A DNA stretch of 64,000 nt, taken from contig JAFWGQ010000047.1 in NCBI GenBank assembly GCA_017512365.1, positions 52,016 through 116,015 of the forward strand. Reading direction: 5' to 3'. Under the pieces are notes generated by a model that ran no database searches, was not told where the DNA came from, and was given only the letters and a program-made list of their open reading frames with translations. Shown piece after piece: positions 646 to 28,728 of the stretch; position 1 is the first letter of the stretch; each line of letters opens with the position of its first letter. The position numbers and the translations under genes are program-made. This DNA comes from Mogibacterium sp. Its GTDB lineage: Bacteria; Bacillota; Clostridia; Peptostreptococcales; Anaerovoracaceae.

Positions 646-2382
646 TCATCTGTTTTTTTCGGAATACCGGTCCGATCCGAGGTATATCGCGCCGGCGCTC
701 ACCGCGGCGGCGAAGACCGCCCCTATTCCGAGAGACACGCCGTAAGGCAGCGAGAATCCGATCTTTGCATTCATCAGATACGAGCAGGTGATGAAAGCGT
801 AGAACGCCAGCGGGATGAGCGGCATCCACAGATACTTTTTCCTGTCATGACGCATGAGCCATATCAGTATGGCCGCGAGTGCGAACACCGCAAGCGTCTG
901 GTTGGACCAGCCGAAGTACCTCCATATGGTGTTGAAGCCGTTAGGATCGTTCTTTGCCCAGATCAGCACAGCATACGCGAGAGCGAATACCGGCAGCGCC
1001 AGCATCACCCGTCTTCCGGCGTCATCCTGCCGGATGTGCAGCGTATCCGCGAGTATCAGGCGGAGCGATCTCAGCGCCGTGTCTCCGCTCGTGACCGGAA
1101 GGAGTATCACGCCGACGATGGCGATAGGACCCCCCACGGGGCCCAGCATATTGCGGCATACCACTCCGACTACGCTCGTCGCCGATACCTCCTGTATGCT
1201 TCCGTTCACCTGAGCGAAGTACGCCCATCCGGCGTCTGTCATCTTTACGCTTATGCCCGAAGCATCGGCTCCCACGCCGATCATTGCCATCGTGCCTGCA
1301 GCCCAGACCATCGCGATAAAGCCTTCAGCTATCATGGTATTGTAAAAGGTGAGTCTCCCCTCCTTTTCACTCTCAAGTGTCCTTGTCACAAGAGTGATCT
1401 GTGTGGAGTGGAAGCCCGAAAGGATCCCGCACGCCACGGTCACGAAAAACGAAGGTATAAAGTTCTGGCTCCTGAAGTATTCGCCGAAATCGAAGCCGTT
1501 CAGGTCCCAGCTGTCCCACATGTTGACCAGCGAGTATCTTCCGGCCAGAAGCGATACGAAGACGCCGACGGACGCCAGTATCATCACTACCCCTACGATG
1601 AAATATACAGTTCCCGATCTCCCGCGCAGCCTGATCACTTCGGCAAGTCTGTGGTATCCGGCTATGATAATTATCGAGAGCGCCATGAACAGCAGCGGGA
1701 AATACGGATTCGAATCATCCGACAGATCGATCAGAGAGTAATGGCCGGTGAAAAGCATTATGAAAACTCCAACGGCCGAGAGCAGAAGCACCGCTCCGAA
1801 CATCGGATATATCTTTCCGATGATCCTGTCGATCGGAAACAGCGCCGCGATCATGTAGTAGGCGAAAATGACGGAATAAATGATCCACGTCGACGCTTCG
1901 CCTGCCGTTCCTCCGAAGCCGAACAGCTGCGTAGCGGCGATGTCTCCCGGCGTATAAATGAACACGACGCCTATCAGAAAAAGCACTATGCAGACGAAGA
2001 CCGTATATATCCTGTGGATGACCGCGTTCGTGGTCTGTTCTATGATCCCGGGCATCTGGATGCCGCCTTCTCTGACGGATATCATCCCGCAGAAGTAATC
2101 ATGCATCGCCCCTCCGATCACACATCCTATCGGTATGGTCAGGAACGCAATGGGGCCGAAGAGTATGCCCTGGACCGGGCCCAGTATCGGACCTGTTCCC
2201 GCTATGTTGAGCAGGTTGATCAGAGTGTTTTTCCATTTCGACATAGGAACGAAATCGACCCCGTCCTGCTTTGAATACGCCGGGGTCGTCCGGTCGTCGG
2301 GAGAAAAGACTCTTTCACAGAAATATCCGTATAAAGCGCCGCCCGCAAAAAGTATCACGAGACCGAGAATAAATGTATGCAA
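646..2382 (-). CDS. cstA: CstA-family carbon starvation/peptide (pyruvate) transporter
   Basis: A 578-residue integral membrane protein with about 16 hydrophobic segments. The family motif NIAGTGPILGPVQG lies near residue 60, followed by the conserved GGAMHDYFCGMISVREGG loop. CstA proteins import peptides or pyruvate and are induced on carbon limitation in enterobacteria; the exact substrate here cannot be read from sequence. The length is shorter than E. coli CstA (about 700) and matches the compact clostridial form. The frame starts at ATG 2382 behind AAAGGGAG. It is the last gene of a leftward operon and lies 30 bp after the HD/kinase gene. No regulator or two-component pair is adjacent. 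Confidence 0.88.
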   Translation of the reverse strand: MHTFILGLVILFAGGALYGYFCERVFSPDDRTTPAYSKQDGVDFVPMSKWKNTLINLLNIAGTGPILGPVQGILFGPIAFLTIPIGCVIGGAMHDYFCGMISVREGGIQMPGIIEQTTNAVIHRIYTVFVCIVLFLIGVVFIYTPGDIAATQLFGFGGTAGEASTWIIYSVIFAYYMIAALFPIDRIIGKIYPMFGAVLLLSAVGVFIMLFTGHYSLIDLSDDSNPYFPLLFMALSIIIIAGYHRLAEVIRLRGRSGTVYFIVGVVMILASVGVFVSLLAGRYSLVNMWDSWDLNGFDFGEYFRSQNFIPSFFVTVACGILSGFHSTQITLVTRTLESEKEGRLTFYNTMIAEGFIAMVWAAGTMAMIGVGADASGISVKMTDAGWAYFAQVNGSIQEVSATSVVGVVCRNMLGPVGGPIAIVGVILLPVTSGDTALRSLRLILADTLHIRQDDAGRRVMLALPVFALAYAVLIWAKNDPNGFNTIWRYFGWSNQTLAVFALAAILIWLMRHDRKKYLWMPLIPLAFYAFITCSYLMNAKIGFSLPYGVSLGIGAVFAAAVSAGAIYLGSDRYSEKNR

Positions 2383-2412
2383 TTATCGTTCTCCCTTTCT
2401 GTTACCGCCGCT

Positions 2413-3891
2413 CTAAAAGTCCAGTGTTTCCAGTTTGTCAGCAAGCTCCGCCACCCTTTTGAGATTGCGGTCTATTATTGCCCTTTCCTCTTCAGAGACA
2501 GTGGTTTTCTTGTGTATCTTGTTGATCATGCGCACATAGCACAGGAACGCCGCTTTTTCCCTGACTTCCCCGAGCCTTTTCTCGTCATTCGTGTCGAGGT
2601 ATCTCATGAGGAATGTGTCGAAAAAGCGTTTTGCAGTATCGTATGGGAATCCCATGAAGTCCTCTACGACGGCCGGATCATCCTCGCCCAGGATATTGTA
2701 GAAGTAATAAAGGTCGCTGATCTCAGCCATCGGGTGTCCCGTTGAAAGCCTGTCAAGGTCTATCAGCAGCGGCTCTCCGTTCATGAGGAATACGTTGTTG
2801 GTATGGAAATCCCCGTGTGTCAGCGTGTCTGAAACGGAGATGGTATCCAGCAGCTTCATGCATTTCTCCGCAAGGGCCTCGTCCTCTTTTTCGATGCCGC
2901 CTGTGATGTATCTGCGCAGTCTGCCGATCCCGTCAGGGAAGCCGTCCTCGTCGGTCACATGTATATTGTGGATGGTATGGGCCAGCTCCGCAAATACCGA
3001 TGCGTAGTAGTCCACGCGGGCCTGATCTCTGGCGATCAGGCTCGATATGGTCTCCGAATCGAGCAGCTCGTACATGGCTCCGTATCTGTCGCCCACGGCA
3101 ACGATACCGAACGAGATGGCCGTAGGTATCCCCAGAATGAAAGCCTTGCGGCTGAGCGCGATCTCCTGCTCCACATCGCGGTACTTGTTCTTGTTATTAA
3201 ACACCTTGATGATCAGCTCGTCATCATAGCGGTATACCTCCCCTTTGGCGCCGCTGGCAAGCAGCTTGCAGCCCTCCACGGAGACTTCCTTGTATTTCCT
3301 GTATCTGGCCTTTTCCGAATCAAATGTACCCGGCCAGATGAAATTGACGTGCTTTATGAGTTCCTTGAACGCCGCGGTCTTGTTGAGCTCGAGTTCCAGT
3401 ATCTCTGCGATGCCGGAGTAGTACCAGCGCTGCTCTTCAGGGTCTGTCTCATTGAACTCCTCCCATACCGCTTCACCCTTCTCTGAGTAAAGACCTGCAA
3501 GAGAGCGGATATTGGCGAGCTTGTCCGCAAGCCAGAGCATCTTGACTCCTATATCCCTGCTGTTTTTGAGTACCCGCAGCGATTCCTCCTTGCGTCTCTT
3601 CCAGGTCCTGTGCCTGTCTTCATCGGATTTGTTGTCTTCCGACTCAGAGTCGACGAGTTCGGCGACCCTTCTCCCGAATCTCTTTTCTATCTCAGCCAGG
3701 GTCCCGTCCGTATCCTCAACGATGTCATGCAGTATGCCCGCGGTTATCACCTCTTCATCGTGCGTCATGGTAGACAGGATCTGCGATACTTCGATCGGAT
3801 GCAGGATATACGGAGTGCCGTCAAGTTTGCGGATCTTTCCCTGGTGCAGTATCGTAGCATAAATTATCGCTTCTTCAAGTTTGTTCATCAT
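2413..3891 (-). CDS. HD-type hydrolase fused to a choline/aminoglycoside kinase-like domain
   Basis: A 492-residue two-domain protein. Residues 1-180 form an HD domain resembling small ppGpp hydrolases (MESH1/SpoT type): His16, His31, the His55-Asp56 pair with HDIVEDT, and a later ADKLANI motif (122-128). Residues 205-480 form a kinase fold: a glycine-rich loop (ASGAKGEVY, 212-220), a lysine in IIKVF, the catalytic HGDFHTNN (359-366) and the metal-binding DLD (378-380), as in aminoglycoside/choline phosphotransferases. Both active sites look intact. Substrates are unknown; ppGpp or another nucleotide is possible for the HD half and a small hydroxylated compound for the kinase. It sits between the YhhN-like gene (21 bp gap) and cstA, so cotranscription is likely. 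A second Met follows the first directly. Confidence 0.75.
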   Translation of the reverse strand: MMNKLEEAIIYATILHQGKIRKLDGTPYILHPIEVSQILSTMTHDEEVITAGILHDIVEDTDGTLAEIEKRFGRRVAELVDSESEDNKSDEDRHRTWKRRKEESLRVLKNSRDIGVKMLWLADKLANIRSLAGLYSEKGEAVWEEFNETDPEEQRWYYSGIAEILELELNKTAAFKELIKHVNFIWPGTFDSEKARYRKYKEVSVEGCKLLASGAKGEVYRYDDELIIKVFNNKNKYRDVEQEIALSRKAFILGIPTAISFGIVAVGDRYGAMYELLDSETISSLIARDQARVDYYASVFAELAHTIHNIHVTDEDGFPDGIGRLRRYITGGIEKEDEALAEKCMKLLDTISVSDTLTHGDFHTNNVFLMNGEPLLIDLDRLSTGHPMAEISDLYYFYNILGEDDPAVVEDFMGFPYDTAKRFFDTFLMRYLDTNDEKRLGEVREKAAFLCYVRMINKIHKKTTVSEEERAIIDRNLKRVAELADKLETLDF

Positions 3892-24159: not shown

Positions 24160-25305
24160 TTATTTGAGGAATTCAGGGATATCGAAGCTGTCAGGCTCGG
24201 ATGGGCCTGCGCTGTCGTTCTTGTCGAGCAGCTGATCGAGATCGACCTCTACAGCCTCGAGCCCGTCAACGGTGATCCTCTTTGCCGTAGCGAGAGTATC
24301 TCTTTCCGGCGGATTGAGGCTCACGCCCTTCATGCCTTCAGTACGTCCGCCGAAGTCCGTAGCGATTATGGTCACGGAGATCCTGTCCTTCATCTCTTCG
24401 CTGATAGTTGCACCGAAGATGATGTTCGCATCGGCATCCGCCTCGCCCTGCACTCTGTCTGCGATGGTGTTGATATCGAGCATTCCCATGTCGTAGCCGC
24501 CCGTAACATAGAGCAGTATCGACTTGGCGCCTTCGATGGATGTCTCAAGCAGCGGACTGTGGATAGCGTTCTGGATAGCCTGCTCGATCCTGTCTTCGCC
24601 CTCGCCGACGCCGACGCCCATGTGTGCCACTCCACGGCCCTCCATGACTGTCCTTACGTCCGCGAAGTCGACGTTTACGAGTCCGTATTCGCTGATCAGA
24701 TCGGATATGCCCTGTACGCCCTGTCTGAGAACATCATCAGCCATTGCGAATGCTTCGAGCATGGAAGTGTTCTTTTCGCTTGTGTCGATGAGTCTGTCAT
24801 TAGGGATCACGACAAGCGAGTCAACGAAGTTGCTGAGATACTGTATGCCCTTTGCGGCTCTGTTCCAGCGCTTCTTGCCCTCGAAAGTGAACGGTTTGGT
24901 AACTACCGCTACGGTAAGAGCGCCGCAGTCCATCGATGCCTTGGCGATGATCGGAGCAGCTCCCGTGCCGGTGCCTCCGCCCATGCCGGCGGTGATGAAT
25001 ACCATATCCGCGTCCTGGATATGCGAAATGATCTCGTCTATAGACTCTTCCGCAGCTCTCTGTCCGATCTCAGGATTGGCGCCTGCGCCTCTGCCTCCCG
25101 CGACTTTCTCTCCGAGCTGTATCTTGATCTCTGCCTTGCACTTCGCAAGAGCCTGTCTGTCTGTATTGACGCCGATGAATGTCACGCCCTGGAGTCCGGT
25201 GTCAACCATCCTGTTGATGGCATTGCATCCACCGCCGCCTACACCGATGACTTTGATGATCGCAGCGTTCTCCTGCACAGACACAAAGTCGGAAACAAAT
25301 TCCAT
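24160..25305 (-). CDS. ftsZ: Cell division GTPase FtsZ
   Basis: A 381-residue tubulin homologue that forms the Z ring. Visible are the N-terminal [16 protein letters not shown], the tubulin signature [12 protein letters not shown], the T7-loop region [11 protein letters not shown] and the C-terminal interaction peptide [10 protein letters not shown]. It has a perfect AGGAGG site at 25305. Upstream are 139 bp with a terminator for murG/ftsQ, so ftsZ has a separate promoter; a GATAAT with TG extension at 25350-25355 is the best but weak candidate. ftsA, usually just before ftsZ, is not here. Confidence 0.98.
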
Positions 25306-25444: not shown

Positions 25445-27475
25445 TCAGAAGATCGGCATGAACGAAGCTGATCCGTCTTCATTGAAGGTTATGGTTCCTC
25501 TTTTTATCCCGTCATCAAACAGCTTTTCCACGACCTGATGCAGCCTTCCGTTCTTGAGACTGGTCATCAGGCTGTCGTAATCCGTTCTGACGAGCAGCGT
25601 GTCATATATATACGCCCTCACCTTGCGGCGGGTGGACATGTCCACTCTTACAAAATACATGTCAGCCTTTGTCATGGCCTTGATGAGAGCAACGGTCTCC
25701 CTGAATTTCTTCTCATCCTCTGTCCCAAGGGGTTCTCCGAGCTTGATGCGGTTTACCACGTTGCCCTCGACCAGGGTCTGTCTCGGCTTGTTCCTGGTCT
25801 TCTTGAGCAGTATCCCGTCCTCGTCCATTATGAGATAGTCGTCGTCGTATCTGAATGCGAACTTCTCCTGCCTCTCCCTGACTTTTATCACGAGAGTCGA
25901 CGGCAGCCTGCGCGAGACCGTCGCGCTTTTGATGTACGGGTTCTGTTTGAGATAAGCCGTGATCTCATCCTTATTGGCGTGATAGATGATGTTCTTGCCC
26001 GGCACGGCGTGAGCCATGTTTATTATCTCTTCCGTCGTATAATGCGAATTGCCGCGCACCTCTATGGAATCCACCGTGAACACGGGCGACAGCGAGAACA
26101 GAGCCGCGGCTATCGTGACCAGCAGAGTTATGGACACCGTATAGAACTTCGTCCTGAAGCTCCTTCTCTTTCTGTCCTTTTCGCTTCTGCGGGCAGCTAT
26201 CCTTTCCCTGAGTTCTCCGAGCTCCTCATGCTCGGGAGGAAGACCGTACAGCGTGCGGGCGAGTTCCTCCTCGCTGAGCTGACCGCTCTGCTGAGCGGCG
26301 TCCTCGCCGCCGTCGTCCTCAGGTCCGTCAGATCCGACATGCTCTTCAGGTCCGTCGGGTCCTTCCGGTCCCGTAAGCGGCTCCCTGCCGCATACGGTCC
26401 TGTATATGATGTCGGTCGCATGCACGGGCGCTATGCTCCTGCTCGCCTCCGCCATCTCTCTTATCCTGTCCCTGTTGTTGTCGAGGTCCGCAAGCGCGTC
26501 CAGCACCCTGTTGGCGGTATCCGCACCCTCTCTTATGATCAGCGCTCCGCCCGCGTCGGCAACGGCCTTTGCGTTGTAGTACTGATGGTCCGCGGTCACG
26601 TTCGGAGACGGGATGAATACAGCCGCCCTTCCGACCATGGTGGTCTCAGCCGTAGAAAGCGCCCCGCTCCTGCTGATTATGATGTCGGAGGCCGAAAGCG
26701 TCTCAGGCATGTCGCTGATGTATGCGCTTATCCTTACGTTCTCAGGAGCGAAGCCCTCCTCCGCGAGCCTTTTGCTTATCTCATCGTAATACTCGTTTCC
26801 GGTGCCCCAGATCACGGTATAGCCTTCCTTGTCCGCGTATTTTCCGGCCACGGCCTCGCCTATGGCGTTGGTCGTTTCAGATCCCAGACTTCCGCCGAAG
26901 ACCATTATCACAAGGTCGTTCTGAAAGATCCCCAGCGCGTCCCTGTCGGCCTCTCTGCTCCTGCCGCGGAATTCCGCCCTGACCGGATTGCCGCTGTATA
27001 CTATGTTTTTCCTCGATCCGAAATACTGTCTCGCAGATTCGAATCCCAGGAATACAGTTCTGGCAAAGCCGGCTGCCATCTTGTTGGACACTCCCGGATA
27101 TCCGTTCTGTTCGTGTATGTAGACCGGCACCCTCAGCTTTCTGGCTGCCAGCACTACCGGAACGCTGACGAAGCTGCCGGTGCTTATGACGGCGTCGGGT
27201 CTGAACTCCTTCAGTATCCTGAGAGCCTCGTCCCTCCCCTTCAGTGTGCGTTTTACTGTATTGTAAAGCCTCGCCGGATTGCTCCTGTCGAGGCCCGTCG
27301 CCTCGACCTCGTAGAGCCTGTATCCGTGAGCAGGTATTATCTCCCTTTCGAGAGGCTCGCCGCAGGCAATGTAGATGATCTCGCAGCCCGGATCCTCCTG
27401 TCTGAATTTGTCGCCTATGGCGAGCGCGGGATATATATGGCCTCCCGTGCACCCTCCGGTCAGTACTATCCTCAT
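25445..27475 (-). CDS. MurG-FtsQ (DivIB) fusion protein
   Basis: A single 676-codon frame. Residues 1-362 are MurG, the UDP-GlcNAc transferase that completes lipid II: TGGCTGGHIYPALAI, STGSFVSVPV, HEQNGYPGVSNK, FGGSLGS, SRSGALSTAE. Residues 363-440 are a Gly/Pro/Glu-rich linker passing into a basic segment. Residues 444-463 are one membrane helix. The rest is the extracytoplasmic FtsQ/DivIB part with a POTRA domain (VDSIEVRGNSHYTTEEIIN, SATVSRRLPSTLVIKV) and beta domain. There is no Met codon between residues 341 and 487, so FtsQ cannot start from an internal ATG before its helix. The topology is consistent: MurG works on the cytoplasmic face, where the FtsQ N-terminus lies. Its ATG overlaps the ftsW stop (ATGA). 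Confidence 0.9.
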   Translation of the reverse strand: MRIVLTGGCTGGHIYPALAIGDKFRQEDPGCEIIYIACGEPLEREIIPAHGYRLYEVEATGLDRSNPARLYNTVKRTLKGRDEALRILKEFRPDAVISTGSFVSVPVVLAARKLRVPVYIHEQNGYPGVSNKMAAGFARTVFLGFESARQYFGSRKNIVYSGNPVRAEFRGRSREADRDALGIFQNDLVIMVFGGSLGSETTNAIGEAVAGKYADKEGYTVIWGTGNEYYDEISKRLAEEGFAPENVRISAYISDMPETLSASDIIISRSGALSTAETTMVGRAAVFIPSPNVTADHQYYNAKAVADAGGALIIREGADTANRVLDALADLDNNRDRIREMAEASRSIAPVHATDIIYRTVCGREPLTGPEGPDGPEEHVGSDGPEDDGGEDAAQQSGQLSEEELARTLYGLPPEHEELGELRERIAARRSEKDRKRRSFRTKFYTVSITLLVTIAAALFSLSPVFTVDSIEVRGNSHYTTEEIINMAHAVPGKNIIYHANKDEITAYLKQNPYIKSATVSRRLPSTLVIKVRERQEKFAFRYDDDYLIMDEDGILLKKTRNKPRQTLVEGNVVNRIKLGEPLGTEDEKKFRETVALIKAMTKADMYFVRVDMSTRRKVRAYIYDTLLVRTDYDSLMTSLKNGRLHQVVEKLFDDGIKRGTITFNEDGSASFMPIF

Positions 27476-28728
27476 GATCTCTTCACCGCCTTGCGCTTTC
27501 CCTTTGAAATGTTGAGGGCTATGCCTATGGCTATCATGAACGACCAGATGGACGTGCCTCCGTAGCTGATGAACGGCAGCGTGATGCCCGTGGCAGGCAT
27601 CGACGAAGTGACGACCGCGACGTTGATCACGACCTGGAGGCCGAGCATTACGGCAACTCCCGTCGCGAGATAGAATCCGAGTCTGTCGCGCGCCTTCAGG
27701 GCTATCATGATCAGCCTTGTGATAAGGATGATATATACAAGCATGAGGATCACGAAGCCTATGAATCCGAGTTCCTCCCCGAGCACGGCGAGTATGAAGT
27801 CGTTCTGAGGTTCAGGCAGATACAGGTTCTTTGCTACGCTGCGCCCGAATCCGAGGCCCTTCAGTCCGCCGTTCCCGAGGGCGATGAGCCCCTGCGACAC
27901 CTGATATCCGTCGCCCTGCCTGTCGGCGAACGGATCCGTAAAGCTGGTTATCCTCCTGTACCAGTGGTAGGGAGTCTTGGCGGTGATTATGTAGAAATAT
28001 CCGGCCACTCCCGCCGCCGCAGGAAGGGCGAGGAACAGAAGGTTGAGACCCGCCACCAGCATTATCGCTCCCATGATGAATACGATAACGATGGCCGTGG
28101 AAAGATTAGGCTGCCTTACGATAAGGATGAAGTGGGCGATCATTACCGCAAAGAGTACGGTCAGTCCCCTGAACGACCGGATATTGTCGGGATCCTTTGC
28201 CAGGAACACCGATGTAAAGATGATCATCGCCACCTTGGAGAATTCACTCGGCGTTACCCTTACTCCGAATACGGATATCCATCTCTGGGCGTTGTTGACG
28301 GAGCTTCCGATGAACATGACCATTACCAGAAGCCCCAGGCTTGCCAGCATGATGATGTCCGCCAGCTTCATGTATACGTGGTAGTCGATGTTTGCTGTGA
28401 TGAGCAGGATAAGAAACCCCGTCAGCACGAAAAACAGCTGTCTGAAGAGATAATACGTCGGATCGGGATCCGTAGTGTTGATCGTCTGGTAATAGCCCGC
28501 GCTGAACACCATCGCCACCCCGAAGAACGAGAGCATCACGACAAGAAGGACCACGGTAAAATCGTAGCCTCCTATGACGCGGCCCAGTCCGGTCCCGAAG
28601 GATCTGGCCTCGTCGGCTATCTCCCTGCCGCGTCTGCTCCTTCTCTCGCGCCGGGCGGCCTTTCTGATCTCAGCCTTCTCGGCCCTGCTGATCTTTTTCT
28701 TTTTTATCTCAGCATTTCTTTCAGACAT
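27472..28728 (-). CDS. ftsW: FtsW/SpoVE-family SEDS peptidoglycan polymerase
   Basis: A 418-residue protein with a basic cytoplasmic N-terminus of about 50 residues (KKKKISRAEKAEIRKAARRERR) and ten membrane helices. SEDS motifs include NAQRWISVFGVRVTPSEFSK, the loop YHWYRRITSFTDPFAD, VSQGLIALGNGGLKGLGFG, and NDFILAVLGEELGFIG. It polymerises lipid II together with the class B PBP encoded by ftsI in the same cluster. The start lies inside the murD end (25 bp overlap) and the stop overlaps murG/ftsQ by four bases. Confidence 0.93.
   Translation of the reverse strand: MSERNAEIKKKKISRAEKAEIRKAARRERRSRRGREIADEARSFGTGLGRVIGGYDFTVVLLVVMLSFFGVAMVFSAGYYQTINTTDPDPTYYLFRQLFFVLTGFLILLITANIDYHVYMKLADIIMLASLGLLVMVMFIGSSVNNAQRWISVFGVRVTPSEFSKVAMIIFTSVFLAKDPDNIRSFRGLTVLFAVMIAHFILIVRQPNLSTAIVIVFIMGAIMLVAGLNLLFLALPAAAGVAGYFYIITAKTPYHWYRRITSFTDPFADRQGDGYQVSQGLIALGNGGLKGLGFGRSVAKNLYLPEPQNDFILAVLGEELGFIGFVILMLVYIILITRLIMIALKARDRLGFYLATGVAVMLGLQVVINVAVVTSSMPATGITLPFISYGGTSIWSFMIAIGIALNISKGKRKAVKRS

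Follow-up and report, generated by a model that had tools for sequence, protein, structure and literature searches.

A MurG–FtsQ fusion protein in Mogibacterium that may tie lipid II synthesis to the divisome

Fusions between genes for peptidoglycan synthesis have precedents. Within the dcw cluster, MurC-Ddl and MurE-MurF are other Mur fusions; both join one enzyme to another, unlike the MurG-FtsQ protein that is the subject of this work. In Verrucomicrobia, MurB and MurC are fused in a protein that is able to complement E. coli mutants in murB and in murC (PMC4803751). The protein described here resembles MurB-MurC in that two peptidoglycan genes are combined in one lineage-restricted protein, and differs from it in the partner of the enzyme, here a divisome membrane protein without enzymatic activity and not a second cytoplasmic enzyme. 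In E. coli, midcell localisation of MurG requires FtsQ and PBP3 while its other placement requires MreCD, and the authors proposed an elongation complex and a division complex (PMC2170320). The association of MurG with the E. coli divisome thus has a counterpart in our locus, where MurG is tied to FtsQ; unlike in E. coli, in which the proteins are separate and a second, MreBCD-linked complex exists, the tie is covalent and the genus is without detectable MreC. As for FtsQ of M. tuberculosis (PMC10036325), a long disordered cytoplasmic region precedes the membrane helix, and SepF is present with no FtsA detected; unlike the M. tuberculosis protein, whose 99-residue tail binds the membrane and FtsZ, the fused protein carries MurG at its N-terminal end. 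A table in a paper on cable bacteria (PMC7873302) also marks 'fused genes'. Because peptidoglycan-gene fusions such as MurB-MurC exist, the kind of fusion is already known. The literature that we searched, mostly papers outside subscription, yielded no published MurG-FtsQ fusion, and relative to this literature the repeated joining of a lipid II synthase to a membrane protein of the divisome appears to be new.

In the window, by which we mean the whole stretch of 64,000 nucleotides of Mogibacterium DNA that was analysed, murG and ftsQ form a single 676-codon frame with no stop inside at 25445-27475 on the minus strand. The original prediction had described such an uninterrupted frame running from MurG to FtsQ, with no strand given, and had pointed out that no Met lies between residues 341 and 487; both points were borne out by the translation, in which Met 341 and Met 487 have none in between. 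The encoded protein comprises 676 amino acids with a calculated mass of 75.15 kDa. The gene order at the locus is mraY-murD-ftsW-[murG-ftsQ]-ftsZ, with mraY, murD, and ftsW named by sequence recognition and ftsZ by Pfam. The stop codon of ftsW (27472..28728, minus strand) overlaps the start codon of the fused gene (ATGA), and the next gene downstream is ftsZ (24160..25305, minus strand), with no ftsA in between. The fused gene is single copy, with one POTRA_1 match and one whole-protein match in the window genome (G000).

The two halves of the protein are both complete, as had been predicted. The MurG domain, a GT28 lipid II synthase, covers residues 1-362 (26390..27475, minus strand) and scores 276.9 bits against the NCBIfam model TIGR01133 murG (cut-off 250.25), with residues 1-359 aligned to positions 6-351 of the 353-position profile. 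Matches to Glyco_transf_28 (3-142), Glyco_tran_28_C (189-347), and, in the second half, POTRA_1 (466-535) each exceed the Pfam gathering score. The MurG half has the GT-B fold of solved MurG, and its motifs TGGHIYP (H13), SRSGALSTAE (E277), and DHQYYN (Q298) align with those of solved MurGs. H13, E277, and Q298 are presumably active-site residues, and with these motif residues conserved the MurG half is predicted to transfer GlcNAc to lipid I.

In the FtsQ/DivIB half, the transmembrane helix lies at about residues 447-465 (26081..26137, minus strand; originally given as 444-463), where the hydropathy profile has its maximum, and the fold model has a helix at 419-461. The 20 residues preceding the helix contain 10 K/R and the 20 following it contain 1, a positive-inside flank that agrees with the topologically sensible fusion that had been proposed, with MurG on the cytoplasmic side. 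The helix is followed by the FtsQ-type POTRA domain (residues 466-535; 25871..26080, minus strand; POTRA_1 57.8 bits, cut-off 23) and by the FtsQ/DivIB beta domain (residues 536-676; 25445..25870 including the stop codon, minus strand), which is supported by alignment with split FtsQ relatives and was modelled with a pLDDT of 82-96 per ten-residue block. A profile of the FtsQ half built from 27 sequences of the clade and its relatives matches the solved FtsQ structure 2vh2 (E 1.6e-4); phmmer with the single FtsQ half matched no FtsQ structure, and the structure list obtained with the whole fused protein was filled by the MurG half and is uninformative on FtsQ. The cut-offs of the NCBIfam FtsQ equivalogs PRK05529 (55.2 bits for the whole protein and 52.4 bits for the FtsQ half alone; cut-off 353) and PRK10775 (15.7 bits for the FtsQ half alone; cut-off 366) were not reached, and we take both to be lineage-specific models. 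Within the dcw cluster, the FtsQ half is flanked by murG and ftsZ, and it is the genome's only POTRA_1 match.

The original prediction held that murG and ftsQ are separate genes in known dcw clusters and proposed that related genomes be searched for the fusion. NCBI taxonomy places Mogibacterium within Anaerovoracaceae, and most of the related genomes that carry names are MAGs from the gut or rumen. A whole-protein search of the genus gave matches in 47/47 genomes, the window's own included, and translation of the junction DNA in all 47 showed a frame open over the junction in eight, with the two genes as split neighbours in the other 39, so that the separate arrangement is indeed the usual one even in the fusion's own genus. 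Of note, fused or split was called from junction DNA, because frame lengths in the protein search span a single stop in, for example, G135, G216, G226, G225, G222, and G237, all of which are split by DNA. The fused genomes fall into group A (G000, G203, and G233) and group B (G231, G220, G211, G196, and G214); in G233, murG begins on a different contig, and the contig of G211 begins inside murG. The two genes are separate in named Mogibacterium species and in Baileyella intestinalis (loci L105, L107, L108, and L072). Separately, murG of one draft genome (G215, C77 12489-14426, in L150) lies in two frames encoding residues 1-162 and 166-361, a frameshift or assembly error in the draft.

Beyond the genus, POTRA_1 was matched in 134/148 genomes of an order sample, 126/148 of a class sample, and 141/149 of a phylum sample, the samples overlapping, and no MurG-FtsQ fusion except that of the window was present among the matches listed. 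Two other frames longer than 600 aa among these were considered and discarded as fusions: the G384 frame (704 aa) encodes a long-tailed FtsQ, with murG a gene of its own in that genome, and the G614 frame (1077 aa), itself a weak second match, encodes an unrelated protein with no MurG. In the family sample, with POTRA_1 matches in 194/197 genomes, the frames longer than 600 aa among the matches listed were those of G000 and G196. As far as we searched, that is, in the genus and in the order, class, and phylum samples, the fusion is confined to parts of one genus.

The halves are joined by a cytoplasmic linker of residues 363-442 (26150..26389, minus strand) that is acidic and rich in Gly and Pro; the linker segment initially delimited, 26158-26389, corresponds to residues 363-439. 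The predicted fold has a mean pLDDT of 85.4, with both halves well modelled and residues 368-420, for which pLDDT is <50, disordered between them. The juxtamembrane YGLPPEHEELGEL...RR stretch (residues 410-439; 26159..26248, minus strand) is common to split FtsQ tails of related species. Because linker differences among fused relatives concentrate at third codon positions (46/54/98 at positions 1/2/3 over 181 codons in group A; 217/199/372 over 574 codons in group B), we conclude that in the fused frame the linker has evolved as a coding sequence. Between the window and G203, NG86 dN/dS is 0.11/1.09 in the MurG half, 0.31/1.74 in the linker, and 0.19/2.03 in the FtsQ half; dS is saturated, and therefore only the direction of these rough values counts, dN being well below dS in both halves. 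By itself, the open frame is weak evidence for the window and the other shorter linkers: among 2000 first-order Markov shuffles of each linker, 258 remained open for the window, 817 for L070, 350 for L035, and 46 for L033, and for the long linkers of L100, L062, and L069 the numbers were 0, 3, and 1, respectively. The linker is poorly conserved among fused loci, in which it is 51-152 residues long compared with 104-255 residues for the FtsQ tails of near sisters of group A, the cytoplasmic tails of split species being counted from the first possible start codon.

These data bear on two other explanations of the long frame. That an assembly or sequencing error deleted a stop codon might be suspected, since the window comes from a draft genome (74 contigs, 92.9% complete, 6.94% contamination), but this is very unlikely: the frame is fused in eight genomes (with murG cut by a contig end in G233 and G211), the linkers vary in length, and they evolve as coding sequence, and we rejected error in view of the eight fused genomes with coding linkers. 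It is also very unlikely that the protein is cleaved within the linker, or that FtsQ is begun internally as well, such that separate MurG and FtsQ proteins act as elsewhere. The disordered, acidic nature of the linker would suit such a scheme, as would the in-frame start codons with their Shine-Dalgarno energies in L035 (an ATG located 12 residues after MurG ends, -0.9), L062 (GTGs at 46 and 81, -4.0 and -1.5, and an ATG at 157, -1.7), and L033 (a TTG at 74, -4.2). However, the positions of in-frame starts differ among fused loci, no conserved site was seen in the linker alignment, and the window has no in-frame ATG, GTG, or TTG from the MurG end until a GTG where the helix begins (-3.5). We infer that the product is a single uncleaved chain.

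The genus in which the fusion occurs was also surveyed for other morphogenetic proteins. Among its 47 genomes, many of them drafts for which absence means no match, MreC and the FtsA SHS2 domain were each matched in 0/47, and SepF in 42/47. MreC was matched in 131/197 genomes of the family sample, in which the five members of the genus had no match. MreB_Mbl (PF06723) was matched in 46/47 genus genomes at 17-74 bits, many of the matches lying in frames of ~640 aa; the match in the window genome is DnaK (830 bits to HSP70 vs 63.5 to MreB_Mbl), and although only this match was identified, those in the other genomes would be DnaK as well and the genus is probably without MreB. SepF may possibly anchor the Z-ring without FtsA in this genus, as in actinobacteria. 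SEDS proteins gave two matches in 44/47 genomes and one in G202, G211, and G223; in the window genome they are FtsW and an FHA-SEDS protein of 558 aa with an adjoining PBP. The classical elongasome therefore appears to be absent from the genus while a second SEDS-PBP pair remains. Because the 39 split genomes have the same background, without MreC and FtsA, as the fused ones, the fusion is not required by this background. In L166 (G000:C74:7500-12500), the FHA-SEDS gene is at 1806-3482 on the minus strand (FHA 47.9 bits; FTSW_RODA_SPOVE 165.9 bits) and is directly followed by a PBP transpeptidase gene at 408-1805, also on the minus strand; across most other genus genomes, the second SEDS match is mostly in frames of 570-630 aa, as judged from frame lengths only.

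Our preferred reading, with a probability of about 0.62, is that lipid II synthesis is hard-wired to the divisome in cells in which the elongasome seems to be gone, and that one bitopic protein is the cell's only detected MurG and FtsQ/DivIB. Specifically, the MurG half would convert lipid I to lipid II at the cytoplasmic face, a flexible tether of ~80 residues would run from MurG to the FtsQ membrane helix, and on the outside the POTRA/beta domain would join the FtsL/DivIC-FtsW-PBP complex, and lipid II synthesis would thus travel permanently with the divisome, beside FtsW. With a tether of this length, the membrane surface and MraY/FtsW should be within reach of MurG. A septal placement of lipid II production, which the original prediction also proposed, is suggested by analogy with E. 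coli MurG, which needs FtsQ at midcell (PMC2170320), and the fusion may be of benefit to the cell. Without MreC, only the division link of MurG would remain, and fusion to FtsQ would make this link permanent. Counting against this reading, the second SEDS protein and adjoining PBP in the window genome imply that the wall may also be synthesised away from the septum, where lipid II would then be needed; the poor conservation of the linker and the in-frame ATG in that of L035 also speak against it.

The history of the fusion was addressed with trees, from all of which G211 is absent. A flanking-gene tree (four genes, 50 rows) and a careful tree (six genes, 24 rows) both place groups A and B apart, with split species as sister to group A. 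Forcing the seven fused rows into one clade was rejected (AU p 1.2e-6 with six genes and 2.4e-6 with flanking genes only), and a single origin uniting all fused rows in one clade is accordingly rejected, which leaves at least two origins of the fusion. Within group B, the split locus L102 (genome G222) branches as sister to the four fused rows with support of 86/85. In flanking-gene AU tests, placing L102 with L062 and L069 (p 0.124) or with L151 and L100 (p 0.205) was rejected in neither case, and because L102 may consequently lie inside group B, the number of fusion events is two or three. The trees do not separate gain from loss of the fusion. The junctions themselves bear on this point: the murG end is of the METYR/METYK/QTCKR sort in about 37 of the 53 split junctions (manual grouping), and 40 of the 53 have their first in-frame ftsQ start within -16 to +11 bases of the murG stop, a proximity that suggests translational coupling. 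METYR-type ends and close ftsQ starts occur both inside and outside the fused groups. Because most split junctions share the type of murG end and the close start, the split state is likely ancestral, and one early fusion followed by fissions was rejected on these grounds and not on the trees. At fused loci, both the murG stop and the close ftsQ start are gone, and the fusion was probably formed from a closely spaced murG-ftsQ pair by their loss.

The same junctions lend weight to the strongest rival of the hard-wiring reading, namely that the fusion is neutral: adjacent, closely spaced genes would have lost a stop, and the joint protein would be about as good as two, leaving the placement of lipid II unchanged. 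Because ftsQ starts close to the murG stop in these 40 junctions and the tails of near relatives are long, few mutations suffice to fuse the genes, and 39/47 genomes with the same background are split. We nevertheless consider neutrality rather unlikely, because at least two independent origins were each retained across several species and because the forced 1:1 output of MurG and FtsQ should come at a cost, given that E. coli normally contains more MurG than FtsQ. In division biology, the question of how cells match lipid II synthesis in space to the building of the septal wall has no settled answer. Under the hard-wiring reading, a natural fusion that evolved at least twice would indicate that MurG can live 1:1 with FtsQ and beside FtsW, and would provide a ready-made construct with which to test lipid II channelling. 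The fusion also draws attention to a clade with no detectable MreC or FtsA, where a single machine may serve both division and wall growth.

A comparison of the FtsQ tails in 60 junctions (53 split and seven fused, with G211 left out of these counts, tail motifs included) bears on a further idea. A YGL/FGL motif is present within 60 residues before the helix in 35/60 junctions, including the three group A fusions and 0/4 of those of group B. A second tail motif, [DE]IxYT[FL]x[VA], was found in 15/53 split junctions (L047 and L083, which are the same locus, being counted twice) vs 0/7 fused ones, and the split junctions that bear it fall among near sisters of group A. This distribution is in keeping with the speculation that in the clade without MreC and FtsA the divisome has MurG as an obligate subunit whether fused or not: in split species, the long acidic tails of FtsQ would dock MurG (or FtsZ), and the fusions would swap docking for a covalent bond. 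We regard this as unlikely, given that the motif is missing from most split junctions and that the sisters of group B never had it in our sample. As a separate observation, the split loci L074, L076, L081, L082, L086, and others have FtsQ tails of 100-255 residues, many of them acidic, with repeats of the DDIxYTFVVPKGExY type, and other short repeats are found in the FtsQ tails of L090 and L063 (APSETIQM and VTDDTIAF).
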